Assembly: GCA_947459655.1 (NCBI GenBank)
Contig: CANHEE010000014.1
Location: 1 to 38,308 of the forward strand
Origin: Lewinellaceae bacterium
Lineage (GTDB): Bacteria; Bacteroidota; Bacteroidia; Chitinophagales; Saprospiraceae
Direction of reading: 5' to 3'
Length of the DNA: 38,308 bases
Under the pieces are notes generated by a model. That model was given only the letters and a program-made list of their open reading frames with translations. It was not told the DNA's origin and searched no databases. Positions within the stretch are counted from its first letter, which is position 1; every line of letters begins with the position of its first letter. Shown here one piece after another: positions 4,815-20,793 of the stretch. The position numbers and the translations under genes were made by a program.

Positions 4815-4885
4815 TTGGCTCATAAGGATTCGAACCTTAACAAACAGAACCAAAATCTGTTGTGCTACCGTTACACCATGAGCCA
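4815..4885 (-). tRNA. tRNA-Gln (anticodon TTG)
   Basis: Read leftward, the sequence folds as a full cloverleaf: acceptor stem TGGCTCA/TGAGCCA (7 bp), a D arm closed by GTG/CAC, anticodon stem ACAGA/TCTGT around the loop TTTTGGT (anticodon TTG at loop positions 3-5), a four-base variable loop, and T arm TAAGG-TTCGAAT-CCTTA. The discriminator base is A (4815). The 3' CCA is not encoded, so it must be added by tRNA nucleotidyltransferase. TTG reads CAA and, by wobble, CAG glutamine codons. It is transcribed alone, with its own promoter at 4904-4934 and terminator at 4764-4800. Confidence 0.97.
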
Positions 4886-17342: not shown

Positions 17343-17527
17343 TCCAATTATTTTTTTGTTTTGATTAAATCTACTGTAAGTTTCTGTTAATTTGCTGAAA
17401 CTGTAGAAACTATACCTTTCAGTGATAAAATTTTAACTGAAAACAGCCGTTGCCGTCCAAACGCAACCACTCAAAGGTAAGTTTAATTGCAATAATAATT
17501 TTTACCTTTACGCGCCATTTTCAGTCT

Positions 17528-18433
17528 ATGCAAACTTTTTTTTCCAAACTGCTGCTCTTTGGTGAGCACACCATCAACCTCGGTTCTCCGGCGTTGGCGA
17601 TGCCGCTTGAGCTGTATTCAGGGCACTGGGTGGAAAAAAATGGTGCAGCAAAACAGCAGGACCTTCCCGCTTTTGCAGCATATCTGCAAAAACTTGAGCG
17701 TGAGGGCAAAAATGTGCTCAGCATCAATACCGCAAAAATGCTGGATGACCTAGCGACGGGAGCATACTTTGAATCTTCAGCACCTGCAGGCTATGGCGTT
17801 GGCAGTTCGGGCATTCTGACCGCCGCAGTTTACGAGCGGTATGGAAGAGAAAAGCCCGAATTGAACTACCGCAATTTTGTACTGCTGAAAAGCGGTTTTG
17901 CACAAATGGAGGCTTTCTTTCACGGTACCAGCTCGGGAATTGATCCGCTCATTTCTTACCTGAACGAACCGCTTCTGATTACCGAACACGGTGTCACGAC
18001 CGTCAGTCTGCCGGGATACCTCCATCCTGGAAATGCCATCTTCCTGATCGATACGGGTATCCGAAGAAAGGCGGAGCCACTGATTCAATGGTTTTTAAAA
18101 AAAGTTGAAGTTCCGGAAGAACGAAAAAAACTGATCGGAGAGCTTGTTTCACACAACAAATCTGCCATCATTGCTTTTCTGGAAGGCCACTGGCCGAATT
18201 TAATGGAGAGTTGCCATCAAATCAGCTCCTTCCAGCTGAAAGAATTATCGCCGTTGATTCCGGACAAATTCAGGGAAATATGGAAAGAAGGTCTGGCAGG
18301 CAGTACTTACAAACTGAAAATCTGCGGAGCCGGAGGTGGAGGTTTTATCATGGGTGTGACAGCAGATATAGATAAAACCAAAACACTTCTGCAACAATAC
18401 ATTGTCACAGAAGTGTTTCCAAAATCAGGTTAA
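17528..18433 (+). CDS. GHMP kinase, mevalonate-kinase-like
   Basis: 301 residues from the ATG at 17528. The ORF continues upstream to 17450, but the family starts at FSKLLLFGEHTI. The opening LLLFGEH and the ATP loop PAGYGVGSSGILTAAVYE (from residue 86) mark the GHMP superfamily. GTSSGIDPLISYLNEPLL is the second mevalonate-kinase-type motif, and KICGAGGGGFIMGV is the C-terminal glycine-rich motif. The closest fit is the Bacteroidota mevalonate kinase, which makes phosphomevalonate in isoprenoid synthesis. Other GHMP substrates cannot be excluded, and no other mevalonate-pathway gene is in the window. It is followed 13 bases after the stop by a hairpin that, read leftward, ends a candidate small RNA. 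Confidence 0.8.
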   Translation: MQTFFSKLLLFGEHTINLGSPALAMPLELYSGHWVEKNGAAKQQDLPAFAAYLQKLEREGKNVLSINTAKMLDDLATGAYFESSAPAGYGVGSSGILTAAVYERYGREKPELNYRNFVLLKSGFAQMEAFFHGTSSGIDPLISYLNEPLLITEHGVTTVSLPGYLHPGNAIFLIDTGIRRKAEPLIQWFLKKVEVPEERKKLIGELVSHNKSAIIAFLEGHWPNLMESCHQISSFQLKELSPLIPDKFREIWKEGLAGSTYKLKICGAGGGGFIMGVTADIDKTKTLLQQYIVTEVFPKSG

Positions 18434-18440
18434 CAAACTC

Positions 18441-18656
18441 TAAAAAGGGTTAGCGGGTCAGCCTTTACCCCCCAGTAAACTGACCCAACCCTCTACCTAA
18501 GGCCTGTTAGACCAGAAAGTATCTTTCACCAGGCGTGAATGCCTGTTTATGAGTTCACTATCAAGTATTGAGATACTCCAACAACCGTGCCAAAGAGACA
18601 CTTTTCCGCTATGCAGCCTAGGGCGTTTTCATGGTCCTAACGATGCCCTTTGGCAC
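18441..18656 (-). ncRNA. Candidate small RNA, leftward, strongly structured
   Basis: No convincing protein is encoded here. Read leftward, a -7-like TATTTTTG (18657-18664) precedes a region with four inverted repeats: GTGCCAAAG/CTTTGGCAC (9 bp, 18587-18595 with 18648-18656), AGTAT/ATACT around TGAG (18564-18577), CAGGC/GCCTG (18530-18545), and a long hairpin (GGGTCAG/CTGACCC plus AGGGTT/AACCCT and an inner TTTA/TAAA) at 18446-18492 followed by five T (18441-18445). Promoter-like box, folded body and hairpin-T end together suggest an RNA of about 200-215 nt. The box lacks a -33 TTG, and the exact 5' end is uncertain. I do not recognise 6S RNA, tmRNA, SRP RNA or RNase P RNA in it. Confidence 0.45.
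18446..18492 (-). terminator. Hairpin terminator of the candidate small RNA (also after the GHMP kinase)
   Basis: Stem AGGGTT/AACCCT and GGGTCAG/CTGACCC (13 bp with a 3-base bulge AGC at 18452-18454), topped by TTTA/TAAA with a C-rich loop. Read leftward it is followed by TTTTT (18441-18445). In the rightward direction it lies 13 bases after the GHMP kinase stop but has no T-run, so it is a true intrinsic terminator only leftward. Confidence 0.6.
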
Positions 18657-18664
18657 CAAAAATA

Positions 18665-18930
18665 CGAGCCCTTCCATGCATCACGGGTAATAATATTGAT
18701 CCTGAATTGGATTATTTTTGTGTTGAAAAACCAGCAAACAGGAAAGAAATGTTACAGTGGAGCTCCTAAGTCCAATCGGTCATTTTTTCGCGTATTTGTG
18801 ACCAGAATTACCCCAGATTGCAGCCATATTTGCCAGATTTCGGGGCTTATCTTGACATTTTGGCAGAAATTTTCAAGTGGCATATCATTTGACCGCCTTC
18901 TCATTATTTAAACACTAAAACTCTGTTGTG
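18665..18930 (+). other. Long AT-rich leader / promoter region upstream of htpG
   Basis: No gene is visible here. A rightward -7-like TATTTTTG lies at 18713-18720, but without a -33 TTG and 210 bp from htpG. TTGACA at 18852-18857 is part of an imperfect inverted repeat CTTGA-N17-TCAAG (18851-18877) about 55 bp before the start codon. Either could drive htpG. The repeat could be a heat-shock control site. None of this is established. Confidence 0.35.
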
Positions 18931-20793
18931 ATGACCAAAGGAAATATCTCAGTGCAGACGGAAAACATTTTTCCGATTATCAAACAGTTCCTCTACTCCG
19001 ACCAGGAGATCTTCCTCCGCGAATTGATCTCTAACGCTGTCGATGCAACCACCAAACTCAGTACCATGGCCTCAAAAGGTGAGTACAAAGGTGAGGTTGG
19101 TGATACCACCATAGAAATCCTTCTGGATAAAGATGCAAAAACCCTCACCATCAGGGACAAGGGTATCGGTATGGATTGGGATGAAGCCATGAAATACCTC
19201 AACCAGGTAGCTTTCTCCAGTGCCCAGGAATTTCTGGACAAATATAAAGGCGAATCCAATATCATCGGACATTTCGGACTTGGCTTCTACTCTGCTTTTA
19301 TGGTTTCTGAAAAAGTGGAAGTCGTGACCAGAAGTTGGAAAGAAAATGCCGATGCCGTGCGCTGGACCTGCGATGGCAATCCGGAATACACGCTGGAACC
19401 CGTTGAAAAAGCGGATAGAGGTACGGATGTCATTCTGCACATCAACGAAGAATCCATCGAATACCTCGAAAAGGACAAAATACAGGGCCTTCTGGACAAG
19501 TACTGCAAATTCCTTCCGGTACTGATAAAGTTCGGTACAAAAACCAAAACCGAATATGTCGGTGAGGGCGAGGACATGAAAACGGAAGAAACGGAAGTTG
19601 ACAATATTATCAATAATCCGAAGCCACTTTGGAAAAAATCACCATCGGAAATGACCGATGAAGATTACAAGGCCTTCTACCAGGAATTGTATCCATACAG
19701 CCCTGCGCCACTTTTCTGGATCCACCTCAACATCGACTATCCGTTCAACCTCACGGGAATACTCTACTTCCCGCACATGAACAATTCTATGGAGGTGCAG
19801 AAAAACAAAATCCAGCTGTATTCCAATCAGGTGTATGTTACCGACGATGTCAAGGAAATCGTACCTGAATTCCTGACCCTGCTGCATGGTGTTATCGACT
19901 CTCCCGACATTCCGCTGAATGTCTCCCGCAGTTACCTACAGAGCGATAAGGAAGTGAAGAAAATCACCGGATACATCACCAAAAAAGTGGCAGACAAGCT
20001 CAACGAACTGTTCAAAAACAAGAGAGAAGAATACGAGTCAAAATGGAATGACATTGGAATATTTGTCAAATACGGTATGCTCACCGATGATGCCTTCTAC
20101 GACAAGGCCATCCAGTTTGCGTTGATGCACAATACGGAAAAGCAGTTTTTCACCATTGATGAATACAAGGAAAAAATCAAGGACAACCAGACCGATAAAA
20201 ACGGAAAGGTGGTGCATATCTATACGAACAACGTCAACGCACACGATATTTTCATCCAGTCTGCAAAAAACAAGGGATATGATGTCCTGTTGTTTGATCA
20301 GGTTATCGACAACCACTTCATACAGAAGCTGGAGTACAAACTTGAAAATGTCAGCTTCGTACGCGTCGATGCAGATACCATCAACAACCTGATTAAAAAA
20401 GATGAAACCATTGAATCTGTCCTCAGTGAAGACGAACAGAATACCATCAAGGAAATATTCACCAAAGCACTGGACGACCAGAAAGGCAACATTATGCTAT
20501 CGCCACTGGCACCTGACGACCAGCCTGTCACAGTGGTTCGTCCCGAATTCATGCGCAGAATGAAAGATATGCAGCAGCTTCAAGGCATGCAATTTGGTGA
20601 TTTCGGCGATTTTTACAACGTGGTCATCAATACCAATCATGAGCTAATCTGCTCCAAACTGCTAAAGGCAGAGGAGGCAGACCGCGAAAACATGGCCAAA
20701 TACCTCTGTGATCTTGCCCTGCTCAATCAGGGAATGCTTCAGGGCCCTGCTCTGACGGCATTCGTCCAAAAGAGCATCTCAATGATGAATTAG
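18931..20793 (+). CDS. htpG: Molecular chaperone HtpG (Hsp90)
   Basis: 620 residues from the ATG at 18931. A GTG directly before it (18928) gives a longer ORF, but MTKGNISVQTENIFP is the family beginning. The N-terminal GHKL ATPase domain shows SDQEIFLRELISNAVDA with the ATP-site Asn, IRDKGIGMDWDEA and GHFGLGFYSAFMV. The middle domain contains LNVSRSYLQ and the C-terminal dimerisation domain ends the protein. It is a cytoplasmic ATP-dependent chaperone for stressed proteins. Length is near the usual 620-630. It stands alone between a long structured intergenic region and its own intrinsic terminator, as expected for a separately controlled stress gene. Confidence 0.97.
   Translation: MTKGNISVQTENIFPIIKQFLYSDQEIFLRELISNAVDATTKLSTMASKGEYKGEVGDTTIEILLDKDAKTLTIRDKGIGMDWDEAMKYLNQVAFSSAQEFLDKYKGESNIIGHFGLGFYSAFMVSEKVEVVTRSWKENADAVRWTCDGNPEYTLEPVEKADRGTDVILHINEESIEYLEKDKIQGLLDKYCKFLPVLIKFGTKTKTEYVGEGEDMKTEETEVDNIINNPKPLWKKSPSEMTDEDYKAFYQELYPYSPAPLFWIHLNIDYPFNLTGILYFPHMNNSMEVQKNKIQLYSNQVYVTDDVKEIVPEFLTLLHGVIDSPDIPLNVSRSYLQSDKEVKKITGYITKKVADKLNELFKNKREEYESKWNDIGIFVKYGMLTDDAFYDKAIQFALMHNTEKQFFTIDEYKEKIKDNQTDKNGKVVHIYTNNVNAHDIFIQSAKNKGYDVLLFDQVIDNHFIQKLEYKLENVSFVRVDADTINNLIKKDETIESVLSEDEQNTIKEIFTKALDDQKGNIMLSPLAPDDQPVTVVRPEFMRRMKDMQQLQGMQFGDFGDFYNVVINTNHELICSKLLKAEEADRENMAKYLCDLALLNQGMLQGPALTAFVQKSISMMN

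Follow-up and report, generated by a model that had tools for sequence, protein, structure and literature searches.

The gap between a GHMP kinase-like gene and htpG in a Lewinellaceae contig almost certainly holds a real small RNA gene, a member of a structured RNA family that is apparently undescribed. Hereafter, the window is the whole stretch of DNA that was analysed (38,308 nucleotides). A first-pass annotation, made from the letters of the window, had read the gap as a leftward small RNA ending at a hairpin and T-run, and this is still the best reading, as relatives show compensating changes; that annotation did not foresee the association with htpG, the tandem arrangement of units or the conservation of a G6 loop. 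The features of the region are listed below, the transcript and its promoter being predictions from sequence.

17450-18433, plus strand: mevalonate-kinase-like (GHMP) protein, convergent neighbour (TIGR00549 at 64 bits, under its cut-off of 163)
18436-18566, minus strand: predicted sRNA transcript, running from about 12 nt past the -12 element to the T-run
18441-18520, minus strand: conserved family core, made up of hairpin 1 and the terminator hairpin, matched by the covariance model
18442-18446, minus strand: T-run TTTTT 3' of the terminator hairpin, read from the sequence
18447-18491, minus strand: terminator hairpin, with stems GGGUU/AACCC and GGGUCAG/CUGACCC, both of which covary across the family
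18466-18476, minus strand: terminator-hairpin tip ACUGGGGGGUA, open in the comparative structure, with its G6 at 18468-18473
18497-18517, minus strand: hairpin 1, whose GGUC/GGCC core is paired in the window, where two of the outer pairs are non-standard
18578-18592, minus strand: sRNA sigma-54 -24/-12-like box TGGCACGGTTGTTGG (GG-N10-GG)
18853-18865, plus strand: palindrome TGACATTTTGGCA, at a fixed distance upstream of the htpG -24 box
18878-18892, plus strand: htpG sigma-54 -24/-12-like box TGGCATATCATTTGA (GG-N10-GA)
18931-20793, plus strand: htpG (HSP90 chaperone), divergent neighbour, ATG at 18931 (NCBIfam NF003555 at 641 bits; Pfam HSP90)

Several elements of the first-pass annotation are present as described. 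The hairpin at 18491-18447 on the minus strand is followed by TTTTT at 18446-18442, and the gap has no credible protein, its sole ORF of at least 90 aa (18549-18911, plus strand, 120 aa) giving no Pfam match at E<=0.1. The kinase-like protein gave none at E<=0.001, and its best named match, at 44% identity, is from an uncultured Saprospiraceae bacterium. Within its last codons lies an 18-nt inverted repeat (18381-18418; 89% complementary, 2-nt spacer), possibly a terminator overlapping the end of the kinase coding sequence. Folding alone is modest evidence for an RNA. The 224-nt stretch originally annotated had a z score of -1.91 (5 of 200 shuffles equally good) and the predicted 130-nt transcript one of -2.64 (4 of 300), while the plus strand of the 224-nt stretch, at -2.05, was about as unusual as the minus strand. 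In the minimum-energy fold of the window sequence the tip is partly paired, with about 4 G left unpaired.

The family was found through recurrence. At a loose threshold (E<=1), 201 of 398 genomes in the window's taxonomic family gave matches, most of them apparently by chance, and among these certain matches recurred at the terminator loop, several per contig and spaced mostly about 170-200 bp apart; four loci fetched through them carried htpG. In the units of relatives, a short hairpin is followed by a terminator hairpin, whose tip reads UUUAYUGGGGGGUAAA or a near variant, and by a T-run, and the units point away from htpG wherever the fetched stretch included that gene. The first covariance model (R1) was built from 28 seeds chosen by the letters GGGGGGTA or GGGGGGTG. 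The string GGGGGGUA is present in all 88 R1 matches of alignment A3, a constancy that is partly the product of selection, since the seeds were chosen by their loop letters. During curation, L073:1111(+) was removed from alignment A1 as a false loop, and seven of the 105 matches in alignment A2, which were loop-less, low-scoring and on the reverse strand, were kept out of A3. For the final alignment (A4, 65 units), 9 of 74 filtered units were left out by hand, mainly for 3' ends misplaced by the script, although L136:2824 and L147:2881 were omitted without a recorded reason. The tip YYGGGGGGUA occurs in 65/65 units of A4 and is CUGGGGGGUA in the window; in a distant form (locus L175) the second tip reads GGGGGGUU.

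The strongest support for a conserved structure comes from paired changes. The family structure was written by hand after the alignment columns had been viewed, so that the share of paired cells in A4 (90.3%), derived from the same sequences, is biased upward, and the two-sided changes are the stronger point. Aligning relatives and testing the stems for compensating changes, a check that the first-pass annotation had itself proposed, gave two-sided changes in 25 of 27 stem pairs among the 65 units, including all 9 pairs of hairpin 1. Cells with such changes numbered 245, as against a shuffled mean of 61, and on each of the five measures used, all 500 shuffles fell short of what was observed. 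When partners were slid by one column, pairing was halved. Finally, a model built from 64 units with the window excluded (R3) found the window at 48.6 bits (E 5.8e-10) in a search that scored every position, the next best match reaching 11.3 bits; the 65-row model that includes the window scored it at 53.0 bits.

Comparison with known RNAs bore out the earlier statement that no known housekeeping RNA is recognisable here, as Rfam, 6S families included, has no match for the RNA in the gap. At gathering score, the whole window contains only a tRNA (4815-4885), and a dedicated tRNA/tmRNA search likewise gave only a tRNA-Gln, elsewhere. Under permissive settings (E<=5) the single match in the gap search was a truncated hit of a miRNA model (E 0.3) at the inverted repeat at 18381-18418. 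Rfam searches of the loci of 15 relatives and 9 further loci returned nothing for the G6-loop RNA.

The RNA is widespread in the window's family, probably Saprospiraceae. R1 matched at E<=0.1 in 140 of the 398 genomes, the window's own included, spanning 48 of 112 genera, and had no match in the other 258 at this threshold. Model R2 matched in 21 of 248 genomes of an order sample and 4 of 296 of a phylum sample, with all matches inside the window's family; both samples include that family, and their share of genomes from outside it is not given in full. Because the R1 and R2 distribution searches used stricter filters and lost weak matches, absences are not certain. In the window genome the family model matched once. 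A BLAST comparison of the gap with the host genome, another check suggested at first pass, found its DNA present once; among 60 genomes BLAST returned only the window's own copy, and a plasmid search gave no match to the gap RNA.

In the fetched loci, the RNA lies mostly beside htpG. Fifty-eight loci were used for the counts of place, promoter, units, start boxes and palindromes, 55 of them with a usable loop: L133 and L156 are BLAST-only regions without one, and L129, which has seven G, failed the loop filter. These loci are fetched examples rather than all 140 genomes, with one genome counted twice. Same-genome repeats (L164, L165, L166, L169) and near-copies from the same genus (L078-L081, L143, L154) had been dropped beforehand, and L087-L117, L157-L162 and L178-L181 were not used. 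Some redundancy was retained (L163 and L153 represent the same genome, L144 and L145 one assembly), and several loci share a genus, so that loci are not independent. With these provisos, htpG was adjoining and divergent in 49 of 55 loci, with 230-887 nt between the first loop and the point where the htpG match starts; the stretches fetched for the remaining six, one of which lies at a contig end, contained no htpG. Loci carry one to four units, with two to four in 26/52 and a single one in 26/52. The kinase is not a conserved neighbour, since among 29 kinase loci from other genomes only L013 has htpG in its flanks, and there the RNA gave no match.

Two further observations concern individual loci. 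One assembly (G140) has two separate htpG loci on different contigs (L144 on C37, L145 on C10) with the RNA at each, which could reflect duplication or contamination. Five loci (L171, L173, L174, L176, L177) hold short distant forms with one G6-loop hairpin 72-88 nt past a sigma-54-like box; the box reaches p<=0.05 in L173 and L176 only, and four of the five adjoin htpG.

We next considered the promoter, which we judge likely to be of the sigma-54 type on the strength of its sequence. When the 300 nt upstream of the first loop were scored against mononucleotide shuffles, 38 of 55 loci had a sigma-54-like box at p<=0.05, starting 72-284 nt before the loop, and the other 17 had none at this level; the scoring was devised with the motif already noticed in some of the same loci. 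In the window, the box TGGCACGGTTGTTGG was equalled by 0 of 200 shuffles. Its -12 pair is GG, the usual pair being GC, 10 nt from the -24 GG.

This box also bears on where the transcript begins. The TATTTTTG box, first annotated as a -7-like element, is indeed present on the minus strand (18664-18657), but its role as a conserved start is not supported: of 55 loci, 13 (one genome being represented twice) have a TAnnTTTG in the 330 nt leading up to the first loop, and its distance from the loop varies. A start near 18657-18664 is probably wrong, as the sigma-54-type box at 18578-18592 is common to many relatives and TATTTTTG is not. The perfect 9-nt arms GTGCCAAAG/CTTTGGCAC do exist (18587-18595 and 18648-18656), but their proposed role as a stem closing the 5' domain of the RNA is probably mistaken as well. 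A partner of at least 6 nt for the -24 box within 110 nt upstream was found in 4 of 34 loci, the window included. Moreover, the sRNA sigma-54 box takes in part of the inner arm copy (its TGGCAC), and since this copy contains the -24 box, the arm is probably promoter DNA. With the start and the 5' domain in doubt, the original length of about 220 nt is probably wrong too, and about 130 nt, from the sigma-54-type box to the terminator-like hairpin, is predicted instead.

The same type of box is a feature of htpG itself, where it was found in 47 of 50 upstream regions as compared with 0-2.3% in shuffles. The rpoN gene was found in 79 of 80 genomes, the window genome included, in genomes with or without the RNA alike, and its co-occurrence is thus non-discriminating. 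Across the window genome the box pattern was counted 73 times and its reversed control 24 times. Seventy-one of these 73 sites were examined, and 11 precede an ORF of at least 80 codons, four of which were identified by Pfam (htpG, dnaK, rpoN and a thioredoxin-like gene); none of the 11 was recognised as groES, grpE, clpB or lon. The boxes upstream of rpoN itself and dnaK lie in L224 (G000:C33) and L238 (G000:C54). In Flavobacterium psychrophilum, sigma-54-motif promoters are reported to precede GroES/EL, Lon, DnaK, GrpE/DnaJ, HtpG and Rfp36, a putative regulatory RNA (PMC9723704), and Bacteroidota chaperone genes are described as enriched for predicted sigma-54 promoters (PMC12316311). The box pattern in the window genome fits this published sigma-54 chaperone control in Bacteroidota (PMC9723704, PMC12316311).

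The htpG promoter has a further feature. A palindrome, G.CAN3TG.C, lies 24 or 25 nt upstream of the htpG -24 box in 44 of 47 loci, as against a rate of 0.0013 in shuffles, although the pattern was loosened after viewing the same loci and its first, stricter form had matched 7 of 47. It is perhaps the operator of a stress regulator. The palindrome accompanies 1 of 32 sRNA boxes, and chaperone and sRNA may therefore not share an activator. A search for an enhancer between both promoters gave a 19-nt consensus at p<=0.02 in 3 loci. Judging from the two boxes, we think it somewhat probable that the sRNA is co-regulated with htpG.

A conserved 10-nt tip on a variable stem, with what is likely its own promoter and terminator and with repeated units, leads one to expect either a pairing seed or a protein-binding site. 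Our best guess, which we favour on balance, is a predicted sigma-54-driven sRNA of the chaperone response that would act through its G6 loop. RNA polymerase with sigma-54 would start after the -24/-12 box at 18578-18592, and leftward transcription would stop at the hairpin and T-run, at 18441. Sigma-54 probably also drives htpG in the opposite direction, from that gene's own box, and the stress that induces the chaperone may thus also induce the sRNA. The active part would be the tip YYGGGGGGUA, presented by a stem whose sequence can vary freely. We suppose that the tip could pair with C-rich UUUACCCCCC-like stretches of target mRNAs, altering their translation or stability, and that the tandem units in relatives might raise the dose of the sRNA. 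Our lean to pairing through the G6 loop is weak, and this mode of action is a tentative choice; action by binding a protein seems less probable still.

The target search in the window genome gave limited guidance. The complementary octamer TACCCCCC is not enriched there, with 17 sites compared with 18 for the reversed control, and one of the 17 is the antisense of the sRNA loop itself. Besides the window, four sites fall outside longer ORFs. One of these is antisense to RNase P RNA (RF00010), and two others offered nothing convincing. The best candidate is the leader of a gene for a Prc/Tsp (tail-specific) protease (L255:1404-1509, G000:C4), in which a sigma-54-like box is followed by a terminator-like hairpin with eight T and then by TTTACCCCCCA, an exact 11-nt complement of the tip region; by our estimate, chance alone would yield about one 11-nt match in a genome this large. 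The TTTACCCCCC patch occurs in the Prc/Tsp leader of the window genome and in 1 of 30 loci of relatives (29 genomes). The sole such relative, L279, also has a sigma-54-like box in its Prc leader, and six other Prc loci have looser C-rich patches.

Other explanations of the element were weighed against this sRNA reading. The RNA could titrate a protein, the YYGGGGGGUA tip binding an RNA-binding regulator and tandem units adding sites. By analogy with known titrating RNAs this would account for a tip that is conserved while the stems covary freely, for the two to four units in 26/52 loci and for the lack of enrichment of complementary octamers in the window genome; however, the single unit in the window genome and in 26/52 loci is few for a titrating RNA, and we regard titration as unlikely, while giving it a real chance as the main rival. 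The position of the conserved part, which ends in a hairpin and T-run just beyond the neighbour's stop codon and mostly adjoins htpG, would also suit a leftward terminator that acts only in cis, insulating the neighbouring gene from divergent htpG transcription and having no function in trans. Yet a terminator requires neither a conserved 10-nt tip nor hairpin 1, and the tandem units and the separate sigma-54-type box point to a product, which makes a cis-only role improbable.

In arrays, many later units (for example in L070-L073 and L142) are preceded by T-rich sequence in which one or two patches, each of five to seven C, are complementary to the G6 loops. Such patches might pair with the loops from unit to unit, as a self-sponge or a read-through switch. 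Patches of at least five C, or C runs with one T, precede 31 of 41 later units, a count made without a shuffle control; but they occur at 19 of 52 first units and are absent from the window RNA, so they are not needed for a basic function across the family, and we consider unit-to-unit pairing quite improbable. A degenerate mobile repeat had been raised in the first-pass annotation, and the several inverted repeats in a short stretch, together with the tandem units of relatives, are what such an element might look like. The single copy in the window genome, which shows no sign of mobility, the mostly constant place beside htpG and the paired changes in the stems argue so strongly against a mobile repeat that we have set it aside.

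Returning to the sRNA of a chaperone response, it is conceivable, and we offer it tentatively, that the sigma-54 proteostasis response of Bacteroidota has an RNA arm. A G6-loop RNA encoded beside HSP90 would silence or release transcripts in protein stress, with the terminator tip as its active site and its dose tuned by tandem amplification. In the open-licence literature, we found no paper describing this RNA by title or abstract opening, and no sRNA paper for the window's bacterial group, to which the present work adds an apparently undescribed structured RNA family. This family sits beside HSP90 in a phylum with reported sigma-54-driven chaperone genes (PMC9723704, PMC12316311). The conserved tip and the recurring place on the htpG side make its function directly testable. 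Pairing with mRNAs would make it the RNA arm of the chaperone stress response, and binding of a protein would be a lead to a new RNA-binding regulator.

Among known systems, Rfp36 and Rfp18 of F. psychrophilum are alike in being Bacteroidota sRNAs, Rfp36 being listed with a sigma-54 promoter (PMC9723704). There, Rfp36 is placed in expression cluster B419, whereas the main chaperone cluster is B254 (PMC9723704). In contrast to the Flavobacterium Rfp RNAs, the R2 matches in the phylum sample all fall in the window's own family. The 6S-Flavo RNA (RF01685) is also a Bacteroidetes non-coding RNA of similar size, but the window RNA has two hairpins and lacks the rod shape of 6S RNA. RF01685 had no match in the window genome at E<=1, and gave four weak matches across 40 genomes, none above the cut-off. 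Sigma-54-dependent sRNAs are known from other bacteria, such as Qrr1-4 of Vibrio and GlmY/GlmZ, and these resemble the window family in having a sigma-54-type promoter, a short RNA with a terminator hairpin and, in some genomes, several similar copies. Unlike them, the window family is most conserved at the tip of the terminator hairpin, has its copies in tandem and mostly beside htpG, is without an Rfam match and belongs to another host phylum. CsrB/RsmZ and CrcZ are titrating RNAs, the last of which is sigma-54-dependent. Although the motif of the window family is different (YYGGGGGGUA), and one unit is present in the window genome and in 26/52 loci, the family has in common with CrcZ and CsrB/RsmZ a repeated conserved motif displayed in hairpins of variable sequence.
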